NCBI RefSeq assembly: GCF_001005315.1
Contig: NZ_LBMG01000051.1
Span: 1 to 41,179, forward strand
Length of the DNA stretch: 41,179 nt
Reading direction: 5' to 3'
Origin: Kordia jejudonensis
GTDB taxonomy: Bacteria; Bacteroidota; Bacteroidia; Flavobacteriales; Flavobacteriaceae
Numbering within the stretch: position 1 is the stretch's first letter; each line of letters opens with the position of its first letter. A program made the translations under genes and the position numbers. Positions 6,660 to 29,630 of this stretch are shown here, piece after piece. The notes below the pieces were generated by a model. The model worked only from the letters and a program-made list of their open reading frames with translations. It was not told where the DNA came from and made no database searches.

Positions 6660-7950
6660 AGCTTTTGTAAATAGTTGTTTATTGTTTGTTATTCGTTATT
6701 CGTTATTCGAAAATACTACTTGGTTCTTGGGTCTTGGTTCAAAGTTCAAGGTTCAAGGTTCAAAGTTAAAGGTTCAAGGTTCAAGGTTCAAGGTTCAAGG
6801 TTCAAGGTTCAAATTTAGATGATTTTAAACTTCGATATTTATTGTTTGTTATTCGATATTCGTTATTTGTTGAGTTGTTGAATGAAACACTTTTACATTT
6901 AGCATTTAGTGTTTAACATTTTTAATTTCTTTATTCGTTATTCGAAAATACTAATTGGGTCTTGGGTCTTGGGTCTTTGGTCTAGGTTCAAGGTTCAAGG
7001 TTCAAGATTCAAGGTTCAAGGTTCAAGGTTCAAGGTTCAAGGTTCAAGGTTCAAGGTTCAAAATTTAGATGATTTTAAACTTCAATATTCATTGTTTGTT
7101 ATTCGATATTCGTTATTTGTTGATTTGTTGAATGAAACACTTTTACATTTTACATTTAGTGTTTTACATTTTTGATTTCGTTGTTTGTTGTTCGTTATTC
7201 GTTATTCGTTATTCGTTATTCGAAAATACTAATTGGTCTTGGGTCTTTGGTCTTTGGTCTTGGGTCTTGGGTCTTGGTTCAAGGTTCAAATTTAGATGAT
7301 TTTAAACTTCGATATTCATTATTTGTTATTCGATATTAGCTATTTGTTGATTTGTTGATTTGTTGATTTGTTGAATGAAACACTTTTACATTTTACATTT
7401 AGTGTTTTACGTTTTTGATTTCTTTGTTCGTTATTCTAAAATACTAATTGGTCTTGGGTCTTGGGTCTTGGGTCTTGGGTCAAAGTTCAAAGTTCAAAGT
7501 TCAAAATTTAGATGATTTTAAACTTCGATATTTATTGTTTGTTATTCGATATTCGTTATTTGTTGAGTTGTTGAATTGTTGAATTGTTGAATTGTTGAAT
7601 GAAAGAAACACTTTTACATTTTACATTTAGTGTTTTACATTTTTAATTTCTTTGTTCGTTGTTTGTTATTCATCATTCGTTATTCATCATTCGTTATTCG
7701 AAAATACTAATTGGTCTTGGGTCTTTGGTCTTGGTTCAAGGTTCAAGGTTCAAGGTTCAAAGTTCAAAGTTCAAAGTTCAAATTTAGATGATTTTAAACT
7801 TCGATATTTATTGTTTGTTATTCGATATTCGTTATTTGTTGAGTTGTTGAATGAAAGAAATACTTTTACATTTTACATTTTGTGTTTTACATTTTTAATT
7901 TCTTTATTCGTTGTTTTATTTTCAAAGTTAAACTTTTTCAGAATATTTCT
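6660..7950. repeat. Five-unit composite array of heptanucleotide tandem repeats
   Basis: This 1.3 kb intergenic block has no credible gene. It is built of about five units of 215-280 bases, each marked by AAAATACT (near 6711, 6945, 7223, 7438 and 7701). Each unit has the same order: copies of TTATTCG, then AAAATACT, copies of GGGTCTT, copies of GGTTCAA or AGTTCAA, a constant block around GATGATTTTAAACTTC, more TTATTCG/TTGTTGA-type copies, and a block with TACATTT copies. By eye the GGTTCAA-type copy numbers in the units are about 11, 11, 2, 3 and 7. The heptamer period gives open frames with a 7-residue peptide period, which I treat as artefacts. The layout resembles the heptameric STRR repeats of cyanobacteria. 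Confidence 0.9.
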
Positions 7951-10662: not shown

Positions 10663-10690
10663 CGTCATTCTGAACTTGATTCAGAATCTC
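10663..10690 (+). repeat. Family A hairpin repeat (copy A1), nuclease-free pair, left
   Basis: The repeat has the head CGTC, then arm ATTCTGAA, loop CTTGA, arm TTCAGAAT and a trailing CTC. With A2 it forms an inverted pair about 25 bases apart, the same orientation as the pairs around the GIY-YIG genes but with no gene inside. Confidence 0.82.
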
Positions 10691-10714
10691 ATTATATTAA
10701 TTTACAATGATGAT

Positions 10715-13458: not shown

Positions 13459-13466
13459 TATATTTG
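13459..13466 (+). promoter_or_regulatory. Likely -7 element of the trp operon promoter
   Basis: TATATTTG is a full match to TAnnTTTG and lies 14 bases before the leader peptide ATG, so the untranslated leader would be only some 8-10 bases long. The yceI stop is 30 bases upstream. Confidence 0.65.
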
Positions 13467-13480
13467 TTGAAACAATAAAA

Positions 13481-13543
13481 ATGAACACAAATTTAGTAAA
13501 TACTTGGTGGTGGAACTTACGAACTTCAACAATCGTGAGCTAA
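13481..13543 (+). CDS. trpL: trp operon leader peptide, 20 residues
   Basis: This short ATG-TAA frame encodes MNTNLVNTWWWNLRTSTIVS, with three consecutive Trp codons at residues 9-11. It lies between a promoter-like element and a terminator hairpin directly in front of trpE, the classic layout of a translation-coupled attenuator. When charged Trp-tRNA is scarce the ribosome should stall on the TGG codons and change the downstream RNA fold. It is too short for usual gene callers. I infer the role from codon content and position; the gene symbol follows use for leader peptides in other bacteria. Confidence 0.85.
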   Translation: MNTNLVNTWWWNLRTSTIVS

Positions 13544-13591
13544 GTCCCTATTTACTATTAATAGATATATAAAAAGACTTGTCAATCACGA
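13494..13591 (+). promoter_or_regulatory. Attenuator RNA pairing region of the trp leader
   Basis: By eye, TAGTAAATA (13494-13502, just before the Trp codons) can pair perfectly with TATTTACTA (13549-13557). ACTTA (13515-13519) can pair with TAAGT (13541-13545). TCGTGA (13533-13538, at the end of the leader frame) is complementary to TCACGA (13586-13591) in the loop and 3' arm of the terminator. A ribosome held at the Trp codons would break the first helices and could free TCGTGA to oppose the terminator. The switch is a model, not a computed fold. Confidence 0.6.
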
Positions 13592-17640: not shown

Positions 17641-17677
17641 CGTCATGCTGAACTCGATTCAGTATTGATTCAGCATC
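17641..17677 (+). repeat. Family A hairpin repeat (copy A3), left flank of nuclease 1
   Basis: Head CGTC, arm ATGCTGAA, loop CTCGA, then ATTCAGT and a partial duplication (ATTGATTCAGCAT) that extends the element to about 37 bases. It is followed nine bases later by the ATG of the first GIY-YIG gene. Confidence 0.8.
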
Positions 17678-17686
17678 GCATATGAA

Positions 17687-17965
17687 ATGAAAAAAAGTTA
17701 TATATACATACTCACGAATACATATAGAACTACTTTCTACATTGGCATTACGGCAGATTTAAAAAATAGAATAATTTCTCATGCAGATGGAAAAGGTTCT
17801 GAATTCACAAAAAAATATAACGTAACTGATTTAGTGTATTACGAAGAATTTTTAGATATAAATCAAGCGATTGCTAGAGAAAAACAATTAAAAAACTGGA
17901 AAAGAGATTGGAAAATCGAATTAATAAAGAAATTGAATCCATCATTGGAAACAATTAATCTATAA
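17687..17965 (+). CDS. GIY-YIG nuclease-domain protein (copy 1) inside the trp operon
   Basis: The 92-residue protein is one GIY-YIG domain of the UPF0213 type. It has YIYILTN (5-11) and FYIG (17-20) for the GIY and YIG strands, Arg28, His32, Glu65 in AIAREKQLKNWKRDWK, and Asn84 in KLNPS, so all expected active-site positions are present. No DNA-binding extension is seen. GIY-YIG enzymes cut one DNA strand through a metal-dependent Tyr/Arg/Glu site; the small stand-alone group is of unknown role. It lies between trpC and trpF on the operon strand and is bracketed by inverted hairpin repeats A3 and A4. It has no tryptophan-related function that I know of. It differs from copy 2 at about 16 residues. 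Confidence 0.9.
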   Translation: MKKSYIYILTNTYRTTFYIGITADLKNRIISHADGKGSEFTKKYNVTDLVYYEEFLDINQAIAREKQLKNWKRDWKIELIKKLNPSLETINL

Positions 17966-17979
17966 AACAAAGGCTATGA

Positions 17980-18005
17980 GATCCTGAATCAAGTTCAGGA
18001 TGACG
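17980..18005 (-). repeat. Family A hairpin repeat (copy A4), right flank of nuclease 1
   Basis: This inverted copy has arms ATCCTGAA and TTCAGGAT around TCAAG and ends in GACG, the complement of the CGTC head. It starts 15 bases after the nuclease stop. Relative to A3, the stem changed on both sides (GC to CC, GC to GG). Confidence 0.85.
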
Positions 18006-18020
18006 CAAATTAGCGCAGAA

Positions 18021-18069
18021 CGTCATGCTGAACCATGTACTGAACTAGATTGAGTATTGATTCAGCATC
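18021..18069 (+). repeat. Family A repeat (copy A5), expanded, before trpF
   Basis: Head CGTCATGCTGAA, then an insertion-like centre with a nested GTACTGAACTAGATTGAGTA, then ATTGATTCAGCATC. It is followed by ACACAAGAAATGAAAAAAA, the same junction that follows A7 at the start of nuclease 2, but the nuclease frame is missing. I read it as the left end of a decayed module. Confidence 0.7.
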
Positions 18070-18094
18070 ACACAAGAAATGAAAAAAATAAACA

Positions 18095-18114
18095 GATTCC
18101 TGCCTACACAGGAA
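18095..18114 (-). repeat. Family B repeat (copy B3), before trpF
   Basis: On the minus strand the arms are ATTCCTGT and GCAGGAAT around GTAG; one pair of the stem is a G-T wobble. It lies 20 bases before the trpF start and follows the remnant at A5. Confidence 0.75.
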
Positions 18115-18134
18115 TAATAAATAAGTACCAAACT

Positions 18135-18833
18135 ATGAAACTCAAAATATGTGGAATGAAATACGAAGACAATATGACGGCTGTAAGCAACTTACAACCT
18201 GATTATTTGGGCTTTATATTCTACAAAAAATCATCACGTTATTTTGATACGGTTATTCCTGAAATTCCCAAAGAGATCAAAAAAACTGGTGTTTTTGTAA
18301 ATGCTTCTGTTGAAGAAATCGTAAACAAGATAAAATTACACGATTTACAAGCCATACAATTACATGGAAGTGAAAATCCTGAGTTTTGTAAAGAGTTAAA
18401 GGAAAAGTGTCACATCGAGCGCAGTCGAGATGCAACTGATGAAATGCTGAATCAAGTAAAGCATGATAATTTCAACGAACGAAACTCGTCTGTGGAAATC
18501 ATCAAAGTATTCTCTATAAAAGATGAATTTGATTTTTCTGTGTTAAAAGAATACGAAGAAGTTGTTGACTATTTCTTATTTGATACGAAAGGAAAATTAC
18601 CTGGCGGAAACGGTGTTACGTTCGATTGGAAAGTATTGGAAAACTATCCATCTACAAAACCATTCTTTTTAAGTGGCGGAATTGGTTTGGAAACTATCAC
18701 AAAATTGAATGATTTTATGAAAAGTAACGCGTCAAAATACTGTTATGCTTTAGATGTAAATAGTAAATTTGAAATTGTTCCAGGATTGAAGAATATTGAA
18801 CTACTAAAAGAGTTTAAACAAAAAAATATATAG
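18135..18833 (+). CDS. trpF: Phosphoribosylanthranilate isomerase with in-frame repeat insertion
   Basis: TrpF isomerises phosphoribosylanthranilate. The start is at the ATG at 18135 because MKLKICGMKYEDN is the family N-terminus; the frame upstream reads through repeats A5 and B3. Other landmarks are YLGFIFYKKSSRYF, GVFVNASVEEI, IQLHGSENPEFC, FLFDTKGKLPGGNGVTFDW, FFLSGGIG and ALDVNSKFE. The protein has 232 residues against a usual 200-210. The excess is an insertion at about residues 92-118, starting CHIERSRDA and continuing MLNQVKHDN, encoded by a family C repeat and a degenerate family A repeat. It sits between the helix after IQLHGSE and the strand VEIIKVF, at the edge of the barrel. All conserved catalytic parts are intact, so the enzyme is probably active. 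Confidence 0.93.
   Translation: MKLKICGMKYEDNMTAVSNLQPDYLGFIFYKKSSRYFDTVIPEIPKEIKKTGVFVNASVEEIVNKIKLHDLQAIQLHGSENPEFCKELKEKCHIERSRDATDEMLNQVKHDNFNERNSSVEIIKVFSIKDEFDFSVLKEYEEVVDYFLFDTKGKLPGGNGVTFDWKVLENYPSTKPFFLSGGIGLETITKLNDFMKSNASKYCYALDVNSKFEIVPGLKNIELLKEFKQKNI
18408..18485 (+). repeat. Family C and degenerate family A repeats inserted in trpF
   Basis: The family C element spans 18408-18433, with core ATCGAGCGCAGTCGAGAT, encoding CHIERSRDA. A decayed family A copy (A6, minus orientation) follows at 18444-18466: ATGCTGAA, TCAAG, then TAAAGCAT with two changes in the arm. The reading frame is kept through both. Right boundary estimated from where family similarity resumes (VEIIKVF). Confidence 0.8.
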
Positions 18834-18842
18834 AAAATAATT

Positions 18843-18868
18843 CGTCATGCTGAACTTGATTCAGCATC
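18843..18868 (+). repeat. Family A hairpin repeat (copy A7), left flank of nuclease 2
   Basis: This is the clearest copy: CGTC head, arm ATGCTGAA, loop CTTGA, arm TTCAGCAT, then C. The nuclease ATG is nine bases later. The trpF stop is nine bases upstream. Confidence 0.88.
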
Positions 18869-18877
18869 ACACAAGAA

Positions 18878-19156
18878 ATGAAAAAAAGTTATATATACAT
18901 ACTCACGAATACATATAGAACTACATTTTATATTGGCGTAACAACTGATTTAAAAAAAAGAATAAATGATCATGCAGCTGGAGTAGGTTCTAAGTTTACA
19001 AAAAAGTATAATGTAATCGATTTGATATATTATGAAGAGTTTTTAGACGTTAACCAAGCAATTTCAAGAGAAAAACAATTGAAGAGTTGGAAAAGAGATT
19101 GGAAAATTGATTTAATAAAAAAATTAAACCCAACTCTAGAAACAATTCTATACTAA
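18878..19156 (+). CDS. GIY-YIG nuclease-domain protein (copy 2) inside the trp operon
   Basis: This is a 92-residue GIY-YIG domain, near twin of copy 1: YIYILTN and FYIG strands, Arg28, His32, Glu65 in [16 protein letters not shown], and Asn84. The first 47 bases of the gene are identical to those of copy 1, while the rest differs at many positions. The conserved 5' end may mean recent exchange, or that this part belongs to the element's recognised end. It is bracketed by inverted repeats A7 and A8 and lies between trpF and trpB on the operon strand. Active-site residues are complete. Function beyond DNA cleavage is inference. Confidence 0.9.
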
Positions 19157-19172
19157 AAGAAAAAGATTATGA

Positions 19173-19198
19173 GAGCCTGAATCAAGTTCAGGCTGACG
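19173..19198 (-). repeat. Family A hairpin repeat (copy A8), right flank of nuclease 2
   Basis: Inverted copy with arms AGCCTGAA and TTCAGGCT around TCAAG, ending in GACG. It starts 17 bases after the nuclease stop. Compared with A4 one further base pair changed from A-T to G-C on both sides. Confidence 0.87.
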
Positions 19199-19222: not shown

Positions 19223-19252
19223 CGTCAGTCATGCTGAACTCGATTCAGCATC
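19223..19252 (+). repeat. Family A repeat (copy A9), before trpB
   Basis: The head is partly doubled (CGTCAGTCATGC), followed by the arm, CTCGA loop and TTCAGCAT. After it comes ACACTAGAAATAAAGGAAAT, a decayed version of the nuclease start region, then a degenerate family B copy. I read this as another module remnant. Confidence 0.75.
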
Positions 19253-19288
19253 ACACTAGAAATAAAGGAAATGAAATAATTAAAATAG

Positions 19289-20519: not shown

Positions 20520-20540
20520 ATTCCTGCGTAGGCAGGAATC
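20520..20540 (+). repeat. Family B hairpin repeat (copy B5), left flank of nuclease 3
   Basis: Arms ATTCCTGC and GCAGGAAT enclose GTAG, followed by C. The nuclease ATG is 11 bases later and the trpB stop 14 bases before. Confidence 0.88.
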
Positions 20541-20551
20541 TTATAAAAAAC

Positions 20552-20836
20552 ATGGATACGCATTACGTTTACATACTAACAAACAAAAGTCATACAGTTT
20601 TATATATTGGTAGAACAAATCAATTAAAGAGAAGATTATATCAACATAAGAATAATGGAATACGGACTTTTACAGGAAAATATAATGTACACAAGCTTGT
20701 ATATTTTGAAACTACCAAATATGTAAACAATGCTATCCAAAGAGAACGACAATTGAAGAAATGGAAACGTGAATGGAAAATTAATTTAATTAATGGATTA
20801 AATCCTGATTGGAAAGATCTTTCAGAATATGTCTAG
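20552..20836 (+). CDS. GIY-YIG nuclease-domain protein (copy 3, divergent) inside the trp operon
   Basis: The start is at the ATG at 20552 (94 residues); the open frame before it reads through repeat B5. The domain has YVYILTN (5-11), LYIG (17-20), Arg28, His32, Glu65 in AIQRERQLKKWKREWK and Asn84 in LNPDW, in exactly the same positions as copies 1 and 2. The rest is clearly different, roughly half identical by eye. It is bracketed by inverted family B repeats (B5 and B6) and not by family A, which suggests each nuclease type belongs to its own repeat family. It lies between trpB and trpA on the operon strand. Confidence 0.9.
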   Translation: MDTHYVYILTNKSHTVLYIGRTNQLKRRLYQHKNNGIRTFTGKYNVHKLVYFETTKYVNNAIQRERQLKKWKREWKINLINGLNPDWKDLSEYV

Positions 20837-20864: not shown

Positions 20865-20885
20865 GATTCCTGCCTTCGCAGGAAT
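20865..20885 (-). repeat. Family B hairpin repeat (copy B6), right flank of nuclease 3
   Basis: On the minus strand the arms are ATTCCTGC and GCAGGAAT around GAAG. It starts 28 bases after the nuclease stop and ends 9 bases before trpA. Confidence 0.88.
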
Positions 20886-27599: not shown

Positions 27600-28020
27600 T
27601 TGTAAAAATTCGAATCGTCTTTCAAAGAGTTATCTTTTATATGGAAATAAGAATTGTTTATGGATTGGTTGCTGGTTGTTTGTTGGTTGCTGGTTGATGG
27701 TTGCTTGTTGCTTGTTGCTTGTTGCTTGTTGCTTGTTAAAAGTATTCTTTTCAATTCAAAATTCAACATGTAGCATTCAACATTTTAACTTCGTTATTAG
27801 TTGTTTGAATTTAATTCTCAATACTCAATATTCACATCTCAATACTAGTTTCTTTTGGTCTTGGGTCTTGGGTCTTGGGTCTTTGTTCTTTGTTCTTTGT
27901 TCTTTGTTCTTTGTTCTTTGTTCTTTGTTCGAAAATACTTTTACATTTAACATTTATAATTTCAATATTCGTTGTTCTTTATTCTTTATTCTTTATTCGA
28001 TATTCGATATTTTATAGTTG
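27600..28020. repeat. Heptanucleotide and related tandem repeats, second block
   Basis: No gene is visible in this roughly 420-base intergenic stretch. In order it has TTGCTTG copies (about 27700-27737), AATTCAAAATTCAACAT, a CTCAATACTCAATA segment of family D, GGGTCTT copies (about 27859-27880), TTTGTTC copies (about 27882-27930), AAAATACTTTTACATTTA, and ATTCTTT/ATTCGAT copies. The order and units resemble the array at 6660-7950. The last 85 bases before the next gene hold TATCTTTA at 28070-28077, a possible -7 element. Confidence 0.8.
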
Positions 28021-29139: not shown

Positions 29140-29630
29140 TTTTTAGGTCTTGGGTCTTGGGTCTTGGGTCTTGGGTCTTAAAAATACTTTTTTACGTTTG
29201 AAATATCGGTTTCTTTGATACTTCTCGATACTAAATTTCTTGGGAAATTTCACTCGAAGTGACGCTGTTAATTACTAGAAAGACTTGTACATTTAAAATT
29301 CAACATTTAGCATTTATAATTTAATATTTTTTTGGTCACGAATTCACGAATGATGGTCTTTGTTCTTTATTTGATATTCGAAAATACTTCTCAATACTAA
29401 TTGGTTTTGGGTCTTGGGTTTTGGGTCTTGGGTCTTGGGTCTTGGGTCTTGGGTCTTGGGTCTTAAAAATACTTTTTTACGTTTGAAATATCGGTTCCTT
29501 TGATACTTCTCGATACTAAATTTCTTGGGAAATTTCACTCGAAGTGACGCTGTTGATTGCTAGAAAGACTTTTACATTTAAAATTCAACATTTAGCATTT
29601 AAAATTTATAATTTTTTTAATTTCAAATAA
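29140..29630. repeat. Two direct copies of a 150-base element with heptamer tracts
   Basis: No gene is seen here. Each unit has a GGGTCTT tract (29146-29179 and about 29408-29463) followed by a nearly identical block of about 150 bases (29180-29331 and 29464-29619). The block contains a hairpin with arms AAATTTC and GAAATTT around TTGG and outer arms ACTTCTCGA and TCGAAGT (family F), ending GACG, the complement of the CGTC head. The two copies differ at only a few positions by eye. Confidence 0.85.

Follow-up and report, generated by a model that had tools for sequence, protein, structure and literature searches.

The window analysed here is a stretch of 41,179 bp that makes up one entire contig (NZ_LBMG01000051.1) of the 5.36 Mb genome of Kordia jejudonensis (Flavobacteriaceae; assembly GCF_001005315.1). 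Its trp operon contains three small genes encoding GIY-YIG proteins, located in the trpC/trpF, trpF/trpB, and trpB/trpA gaps and referred to below as genes 1, 2, and 3 (Table 1). Genes 1 and 2 lie between inverted hairpins whose CGTC heads point outward. Analysis of homologous loci and genomes strongly supports a general association between nucleases of this family and inverted CGTC hairpins of the repetitive extragenic palindrome (REP) type, and genes and hairpins together probably constitute a module resembling the REPtrons of RAYT transposases, with a GIY-YIG nuclease gene placed between two outward-headed CGTC REPs.

GIY-YIG genes of the trp operon and their hairpins

The initial annotation, made from the letters of the window, had proposed two 92-residue GIY-YIG genes (17687-17965 and 18878-19156), each between outward CGTC hairpins with an 8-bp stem. 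Both genes were confirmed, as their products match the Pfam family PF01541 (GIY-YIG) with E values of 6e-16 and 3e-18; Y1_Tnp (PF01797) was not among the Pfam matches of the GIY-YIG proteins of the window up to an E value of 1. The outward hairpins were also found on both sides of both genes, but only three of the four have the 8-bp stem in its strict form, since the copy upstream of gene 1 is degraded: it has a CTCGA loop and one G.T pair in the 8-bp stem, and 11 nt of its sequence are present twice. The hairpin upstream of gene 2 is a perfect CGTC-ATGCTGAA-CTTGA-TTCAGCAT, and the one downstream is the inverted AGCCTGAA-TCAAG-TTCAGGCT-GACG. The hairpins on the two sides of gene 3, also inverted relative to each other, are of another family (ATTCCTGC and GCAGGAAT around a loop of 4 nt) and have no GTC head. 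Under a strict definition (GTC head, perfect 8-bp stem, 4-5 nt loop), the window contains five hairpins, whereas 40 dinucleotide shuffles gave 0.025 on average and never more than 1, and four of the five adjoin genes 1 and 2. Three further small GIY-YIG genes with strong matches are present elsewhere in the genome, and no such hairpins were found alongside its five larger or more distant GIY-YIG proteins.

According to Di Nocera et al. (2013; PMC3733652), most REPs were sorted into the GTAG and CGTC superfamilies, and CGTC units have a CGTC, TGTC, or CCTC head, a stem of 8-9 bp that begins almost always with A-T pairs, and a loop of 4-5 nt. The hairpins of genes 1 and 2 are composed likewise, with an unpaired head immediately followed by an 8-9 bp stem that starts from A-T pairs and closes a loop of 4-5 nt. 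In 49 hairpins from the homologous loci described below, which had been chosen for head and pairing, the first pair is A-T in 48 and the second is T-A in 43. The statement of the initial annotation that no description of such a pairing was known is too strong: the hairpins fit the CGTC REPs described in 2013 (PMC3733652). In the genome of K. jejudonensis they form a dispersed multicopy family, with 49 copies of the pattern (at most one mismatch), no copies of the reversed pattern, and 37 covariance-model hits at an E value of 0.001. In the loci examined, adjacent hairpins that stand apart from the genes and within 200 bp of each other are oriented head-out, tail-in more often than in any other way (23 of 46, median gap 34 bp); this is the arrangement of the gene unit minus the gene.

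Flanking hairpins at homologous loci

The homologue set comprised the best 80 of at least 318 confirmed candidates, taken by similarity to the query and not by hairpins. By record titles these loci belong to Bacteroidetes, Ignavibacteriae, Proteobacteria, Chloroflexi, Nitrospirae, Cloacimonetes, several Patescibacteria, and others; as many of them come from metagenome-assembled genomes, some taxon assignments may be wrong. With a hairpin defined strictly as GTC directly ahead of a perfect stem of at least 7 bp with a loop of 3-6 nt, within 150 bp of the gene, outward hairpins were found upstream at 40 loci, downstream at 42, on both sides at 31, and on at least one side at 51. The respective numbers for 484 control open reading frames (ORFs) of the same loci, from which 116 ORFs within 400 bp of the nuclease gene had been excluded, were 13, 12, 1, and 24. 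Inward hairpins on both sides occurred at six of the 80 loci and at two of the 484 controls. When all 64 head trinucleotides were scanned, GTC and its one-base shift TCA scored 31 and the next best scored 3; TAG-headed hairpins on both sides were seen at a single locus. Flanking by chance is rejected by these locus controls (31/80 vs. 1/484) and by the window shuffles.

A relaxed search, run without a control set (one mismatch or G.T pair allowed, 250 bp), yielded hairpins upstream at 53 loci, downstream at 50, on both sides at 41, and on at least one flank at 62. With loops of up to 45 nt, the counts were 60 upstream, 58 downstream, and 45 on both sides, against 35, 44, and 2 of 469 controls, and four other heads occurred on both sides at 0, 0, 3, and 0 of the 80 loci. 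A plain inverted-repeat score of the flanks exceeded the 99th percentile of controls at 18 of the 80 loci for inverted and at 39 for direct similarity; since the hairpins are palindromic and direct copies also occur in the flanks, this score is blind to orientation, and the head test alone shows it. Among 12 loci inspected by eye from the 33 records of a plasmid collection, six (Rhizobium, Shinella, Neorhizobium, Sphingobium, Novosphingobium, and Azospirillum) are clearly flanked on both sides by outward hairpins; at the remaining six, such hairpins within 150 bp are inward, partial, or absent. The expectation that most homologues would be flanked by hairpins is thus borne out by the 62 loci with at least one, and the observation is real and more general than first stated.

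Co-occurrence of hairpins and nuclease genes

Hairpins were searched with a covariance model in 100 genomes of the family Flavobacteriaceae, one per genus, and a nuclease was considered close at an E value of at most 1e-25. The hairpin counts are lower bounds, because stricter filters were applied and at most 74 candidates were scored per genome. A close nuclease is encoded in 24 of the 30 genomes with hairpins and in 17 of the 70 without (odds ratio 12.5, p = 3e-7), and in 15 of the 16 genomes with five or more hits as compared with 26 of the other 84 (odds ratio 33); these statistics ignore kinship, and the hits include hairpins beside the nuclease gene itself. A flank count on the 21 of 30 loci of this comparison that have a clean ORF gave 11 with the hairpin upstream, 10 downstream, and eight on both sides. 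RAYT genes (PF01797) are present in 13 of the 30 genomes with hairpins and in 27 of the 70 without (odds ratio 1.2, p = 0.66). Hairpin presence therefore tracks the nuclease, as had been predicted, and not RAYT.

A further comparison involved 30 named genomes, namely those of the 31 loci with strict hairpins on both sides, minus one (L031). Model hits were found in 22 of them and Y1 genes in 21, so that a general absence of RAYT cannot be argued; seven genomes with at least six model hits (G110, G112, G114, G115, G119, G127, and G139) have no Y1 match at an E value of 0.001. No outward CGTC hairpin was found at 20 Y1 genes of the named genomes, a chosen subset of those detected (at one of the 20 a wrongly oriented hairpin is present), nor at any of nine Y1 genes of Kordia, two of which (L141 and L146) have broken or short frames and uncertain borders. 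RAYT as the main mover of the hairpins was accordingly rejected, given the odds ratio of 1.2 and the lack of outward CGTC hairpins at these 29 genes. Several Y1/RAYT-like genes of Kordia (L138-L146) adjoin separate palindromes, such as gctagcgcgagtttgcaactcgtgc, and two repeat-enzyme systems may thus coexist in the same genomes.

Hairpin density is very high in three patescibacterial genomes, with 106, 57, and 55 hits in 1.2, 0.6, and 0.8 Mb, respectively. The tally of REP-type GIY-YIG genes covered 21 of the 22 named genomes with model hits, and the dense Patescibacteria (G126, G129, and G134) have one or two such genes.

Hairpin type and protein clade

Within a locus, the upstream and downstream hairpins are more similar to each other (0.78) than across loci (0.54; 0 of 5000 permutations, 47 loci), a difference to which related loci and shared genome background contribute; the test pools the 80 named and 30 Kordia loci, and one of the latter (L114) duplicates L028. 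Hairpin identity is correlated with protein identity, with a Mantel r of 0.41 for upstream (n = 53) and 0.42 for downstream hairpins (n = 50; 0 of 2000 permutations each). On the protein tree, the loop type (4 or 5 nt) changes nine times, compared with 17.8 changes after shuffling (0 of 500; 55 labelled named loci), and the coarse stem class changes 21 times compared with 27.9 (2 of 500; 59 loci). Kordia clades A/B and the clade of L004 keep distinct hairpins, also in the genome of K. jejudonensis. The hairpin type partly follows the protein phylogeny. The suggestion of the initial annotation that the nuclease recognizes the hairpins gains indirect support from this matching, and recognition of its own hairpin by the nuclease is likely.

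The nuclease family

Y18, H32, E65, and N84 do not vary among 51 proteins of the family, and Y7, G20, and R28 hardly do; in the GIY-YIG family, such conserved residues are assigned a catalytic role. Since both the GIY..YIG motifs and the conserved R, H, E, and N are present, the proteins belong to the GIY-YIG nuclease superfamily. The ratio of non-synonymous to synonymous polymorphism (pN/pS) is 0.03-0.32 within genus clades, which is evidence of purifying selection, and the persisting copies thus look selected.

The fold model has a mean predicted local distance difference test score (pLDDT) of 93.4. The nearest structure, and the sole match at an E value below 0.001, is the UPF0213 protein 1zg2 (E = 5e-5, root-mean-square deviation 7.3, 30% identity); Slx1 structures, whose titles refer to branched-DNA processing, come next at E values of 0.06 and above. 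The top sequence match in PDB is also to UPF0213. Proteins of that family (YhbQ-like; 1zg2, 1ywl) share with the nuclease the single-domain fold and a length of about 95 residues, but are remote by sequence (profile E = 2e-7, identity as above). With homing endonucleases of the I-TevI type the proteins share the nuclease fold and a weak match to TIGR01453 over their first 40 residues, but the match is below the cut-off of that 215-position model, and the proteins of the window have 92-95 residues and no further domain. Repeats of the form CGTCATTCCCGC...GCGGGAAT flank a gonococcal relative on both sides; over 79 residues it shares 46% identity with the product of gene 2. An origin from phages was considered and rejected: 14 phage records match gene 2, all with less than 60% identity.

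Filled and empty sites

The strain comparison suggested in the initial annotation revealed both filled and empty sites in the Kordia trp operon, the Azospirillum suf locus, and Sphingobium plasmids. In 11 Kordia trp operons, the trpC-trpF gap is filled in two, trpF-trpB in two, trpD-trpC in one, and trpB-trpA in five; in five genomes no trp site is filled. The trpC-trpF copy of G009 is frameshifted. At trpF-trpB sites lacking the gene, G004 has one clear hairpin with a degraded partner and G002 has degraded traces. In two Kordia genomes (G003 and G009), a trpF-trpB gap of 563-569 bp contains another, apparently coding sequence in place of the GIY-YIG gene (L180 and L183).

In Azospirillum lipoferum 4B, a copy is located between sufB and sufC, flanked by two head-out REP pairs, one arm of which is mismatched; neither the gene nor the hairpins were found at the suf site in four aligned relatives. 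The gene is present in seven records of Sphingobium plasmids (frameshifted in TomTYG73) and absent from four that span both flanks; four records with the gene and four without were aligned. The gene-less site of TomTYG64 carries, at the aligned position of the unit, a single hairpin headed at both ends, CGTC-ACCCCGGG-TCAAG-CCCGGGGT-GACG, and that of TomTYG74 a variant with mismatched arms; no repeat was found at the other two gene-less sites. The double-headed hairpin could be the product of a deletion between two ACCCCGGG arms, or a minimal target. These sites demonstrate gain and loss of the gene unit; they do not tell which enzyme moves it.

Other features of the window

Coordinates of the genes and hairpins are collected in Table 1. 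The REP-like hairpin in the trpF reading frame is one of two palindromic repeats of an in-frame insertion (approximately 18404-18495), the other being tcacatcgagcgcagtcgagatg; the insertion is present in five of 11 Kordia genomes, and shorter insertions are found in some others. A Bacteroid-trp leader RNA (RF01692) precedes the trp operon (13461-13583). Dense 7-bp tandem arrays (GGTTCAA, AGGTTCA, GGTCTTG, TTTGTTC, and others) are located at 6736-7840, 27666-28011, and 29146-29464, with period-21 arrays between them.

Table 1. GIY-YIG genes and hairpins of the window.
Feature	Position	Strand
Solitary CGTC hairpin, family of the gene 1/2 hairpins, distant from the GIY-YIG genes	10663..10691	+
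Gene 1 upstream CGTC hairpin, head outward, degraded by a short internal duplication	17641..17677	+
GIY-YIG gene 1, 92 aa, trpC-trpF gap	17687..17965	+
Gene 1 downstream CGTC hairpin, perfect 8-bp stem, head outward	17981..18005	-
Extra degraded CGTC hairpin, upstream orientation, head to head with the gene 1 downstream hairpin	18021..18072	+
REP-like hairpin within the reading frame of trpF, carried by an in-frame insertion	18444..18466	-
Gene 2 upstream CGTC hairpin, perfect, head outward	18843..18871	+
GIY-YIG gene 2, 92 aa, trpF-trpB gap	18878..19156	+
Gene 2 downstream CGTC hairpin, perfect, head outward	19174..19198	-
Extra CGTC-type hairpin ahead of trpB, perfect stem, head to head with the gene 2 downstream hairpin	19228..19255	+ (upstream orientation)
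Gene 3 upstream hairpin, other family, ATTCCTGC-GTAG-GCAGGAAT, no GTC head	20520..20539	+
GIY-YIG gene 3, trpB-trpA gap	20552..20836	+
Gene 3 downstream hairpin, family as in its upstream hairpin	20866..20885	-

Mechanism and alternative explanations

The anatomy of the loci, its specificity relative to controls, the clade matching, the co-occurrence, the purifying selection within the genus, and the filled and empty sites are all read from sequence; binding, cutting, the position of the cut, and a spread driven by it are inferred. Most likely, the nuclease would recognize hairpins of its own family when these fold in single-stranded DNA or are extruded, and is predicted to cut in or close to the GTC head. 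The break would then be repaired with other hairpin copies serving as homology, by which the unit would be copied or deleted and the REPs shuffled, and gene-less REP pairs with the same head-out layout would represent a miniature form of the module. Cutting may well contribute to the spread of the hairpins. More tentatively, and with the odds somewhat against it, the CGTC REPs of many phyla, including Patescibacteria, might be non-autonomous miniatures of an ancient mobile element whose sole gene encodes the GIY-YIG nuclease.

Several observations weigh against the REPtron-like module. To our knowledge, no covalent DNA intermediate of the kind formed by HUH transposases is known for GIY-YIG enzymes, and a direct role as a transposase is therefore not expected. 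The covariance model (R1) was built from 49 hairpins hand-picked from 85, all of them beside GIY-YIG genes, so that part of the co-occurrence arises by construction and low counts may represent the gene's own flanks. Hairpins occur without a close nuclease in six of the 30 genomes, one of which (G080) has five of them, and 17 of the 41 genomes with the nuclease have no detected hairpins. Even in the relaxed search, no short-loop GTC hairpin was found on either side of 18 of the 80 homologues. Among secondary GIY-YIG copies in genomes with REP-flanked nucleases (20 of 22 listed without their own locus), an outward short-loop hairpin was found upstream of six, downstream of three, and on both sides of three, although for two of them (L264 and L275), broken by early stops, the downstream test is invalid; several others have longer GTCA-headed palindromes, as judged by eye. 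In Kordia, the canonical hairpin is upstream at eight and on both sides at six of 30 tabulated loci, and other clades of the genus have headless (gene 3), long, or inward-headed palindromes. Finally, as the double-headed hairpin of Sphingobium may be a deletion scar, some of the apparently empty sites may be losses. The secondary copies and the Kordia clades suggest a softer rule: palindromes tend to be specific to a clade and are often CGTC REPs, but the canonical REP is not present at every copy.

A divergent GIY-YIG clade of Kordia (L126, L128, L134, and L135) was seen by eye to have GTCAGTTCGAGCGCAGTCGAGAAC-type palindromes oriented head-inward, the reverse of the usual arrangement.

Passive hitch-hiking, in which REPs gather in gaps and at operon ends and small genes become flanked by chance, could draw on the preference of REPs for the 3' ends of genes noted by Di Nocera et al. 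(2013; PMC3733652). Its simple form is contradicted by the single flanked ORF among 484 controls as against 31 of 80 nuclease loci, by the Y1 genes without outward hairpins, and by the clade matching, and we regard it as extremely improbable. Movement of the CGTC REPs in trans by RAYT/Y1 transposases, with the nuclease being incidental, is hardly more credible: Y1 genes do occur in most of the named genomes with REP-flanked nucleases, but in the 100 genomes RAYT is not associated with the hairpins, seven hairpin-rich genomes have no detectable Y1 match, and several Y1 genes of Kordia have palindromes of another kind.

Two other explanations leave the nuclease a role, and neither a homing variant nor a host function is exclusive of the REPtron-like module. 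The nuclease might act in the manner of a homing enzyme, cutting REPs so that its gene copies itself into REP pairs by break repair, the REPs themselves being spread by other means. The position of the gene inside a REP pair, the prevalence of gene-less head-out pairs, and the Azospirillum copy between two such pairs would agree with this, and GIY-YIG is a classic homing-endonuclease fold; on the other hand, the hairpins follow the nuclease and not RAYT, and their type follows the protein clade, which homing into unrelated repeats does not require, and this explanation appears rather unlikely. Somewhat less so, though still the weaker candidate, is a host-side function in which the nuclease, by cutting its repeats in incoming or lagging-strand single-stranded DNA, tunes natural transformation or recombination; the repeats beside the gene would then be no more than the nearest of many sites. 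GIY-YIG single-strand nucleases named Ssn reportedly act on repeats and modulate transformation in Neisseria, and the repeats on both sides of the gonococcal relative as well as the low pN/pS would fit such a function. A host gene, however, would be expected at a fixed place, and the head-out flanking, set against controls, and the filled and empty sites in the trp and suf operons suggest a mobile unit. Considering all these points, the GIY-YIG nuclease is the best candidate yet for the partner of the CGTC REPs.

Comparison with known systems

Small, widespread GIY-YIG nucleases that cut single-stranded DNA, each matched to a repeat and one of them from Neisseria, were reportedly described under the name Ssn in Nature Communications in 2025; that report, which likewise speaks against the initial annotation's view that no description existed, is not known to claim a mobile unit flanked by CGTC REPs or sites with and without the gene. 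If that work covers the family of the window, the enzyme-repeat pairing is partly known biochemically, and the new elements are the identity of the repeats as CGTC REPs, the anatomy of the flanked mobile unit, the sites found filled or empty, and the difference from RAYT. Among the matches listed for literature joining GIY-YIG and REP terms, only a coincidental co-mention was found (PMC9465073), and GIY-YIG is absent from the REP papers listed.

The hairpins share with the CGTC superfamily the CGTC/TGTC head, the 8-9 bp length and A-T start of the stem, the 4-5 nt loop, and the frequent inverted pairing, and the hosts of the superfamily likewise include Bacteroidetes and alpha-Proteobacteria, the dRS3 element of Neisseria being a member (PMC3733652). 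As stated in that paper, CGTC elements "seem lacking a dedicated transposase", and in the species that have them no RAYT or other IS200 transposase gene was flanked by CGTC units; in contrast to this lack of a dedicated enzyme, a GIY-YIG gene is repeatedly flanked in our data. Of the two REP superfamilies distinguished in 2013 (PMC3733652), CGTC was reported without an enzyme; a nuclease that is flanked by these REPs, co-occurs with them, and varies along with them is a directly testable candidate. Moreover, the matched sets of nucleases and hairpins from different phyla would offer a natural catalogue of structure- and sequence-specific DNA cutters.

A close known counterpart is the REPtron, which consists of the gene of a RAYT (TnpA-REP) transposase of the Y1 (HUH) type with GTAG REPs (PMC8266576). 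Both systems have a gene with inverted REPs of a dispersed family with a conserved tetranucleotide head, co-variation of enzyme and repeat, and gene-less pairs; they differ in the enzyme, which is GIY-YIG and not HUH/Y1, and in the head, which is CGTC and not GTAG. A structure- or strand-specific nuclease flanked by the hairpin that it recognizes, with miniature pairs around it, would work like a REPtron but fall outside the RAYT family. If CGTC REPs are indeed miniatures of an ancient element with a GIY-YIG gene, this element would constitute a second, non-HUH route to REP mobility, parallel to that of RAYT and GTAG REPs, and would answer the enzyme question posed in 2013; and if the nuclease drives the spread, mobility of hairpin repeats would have arisen with two unrelated catalytic folds.

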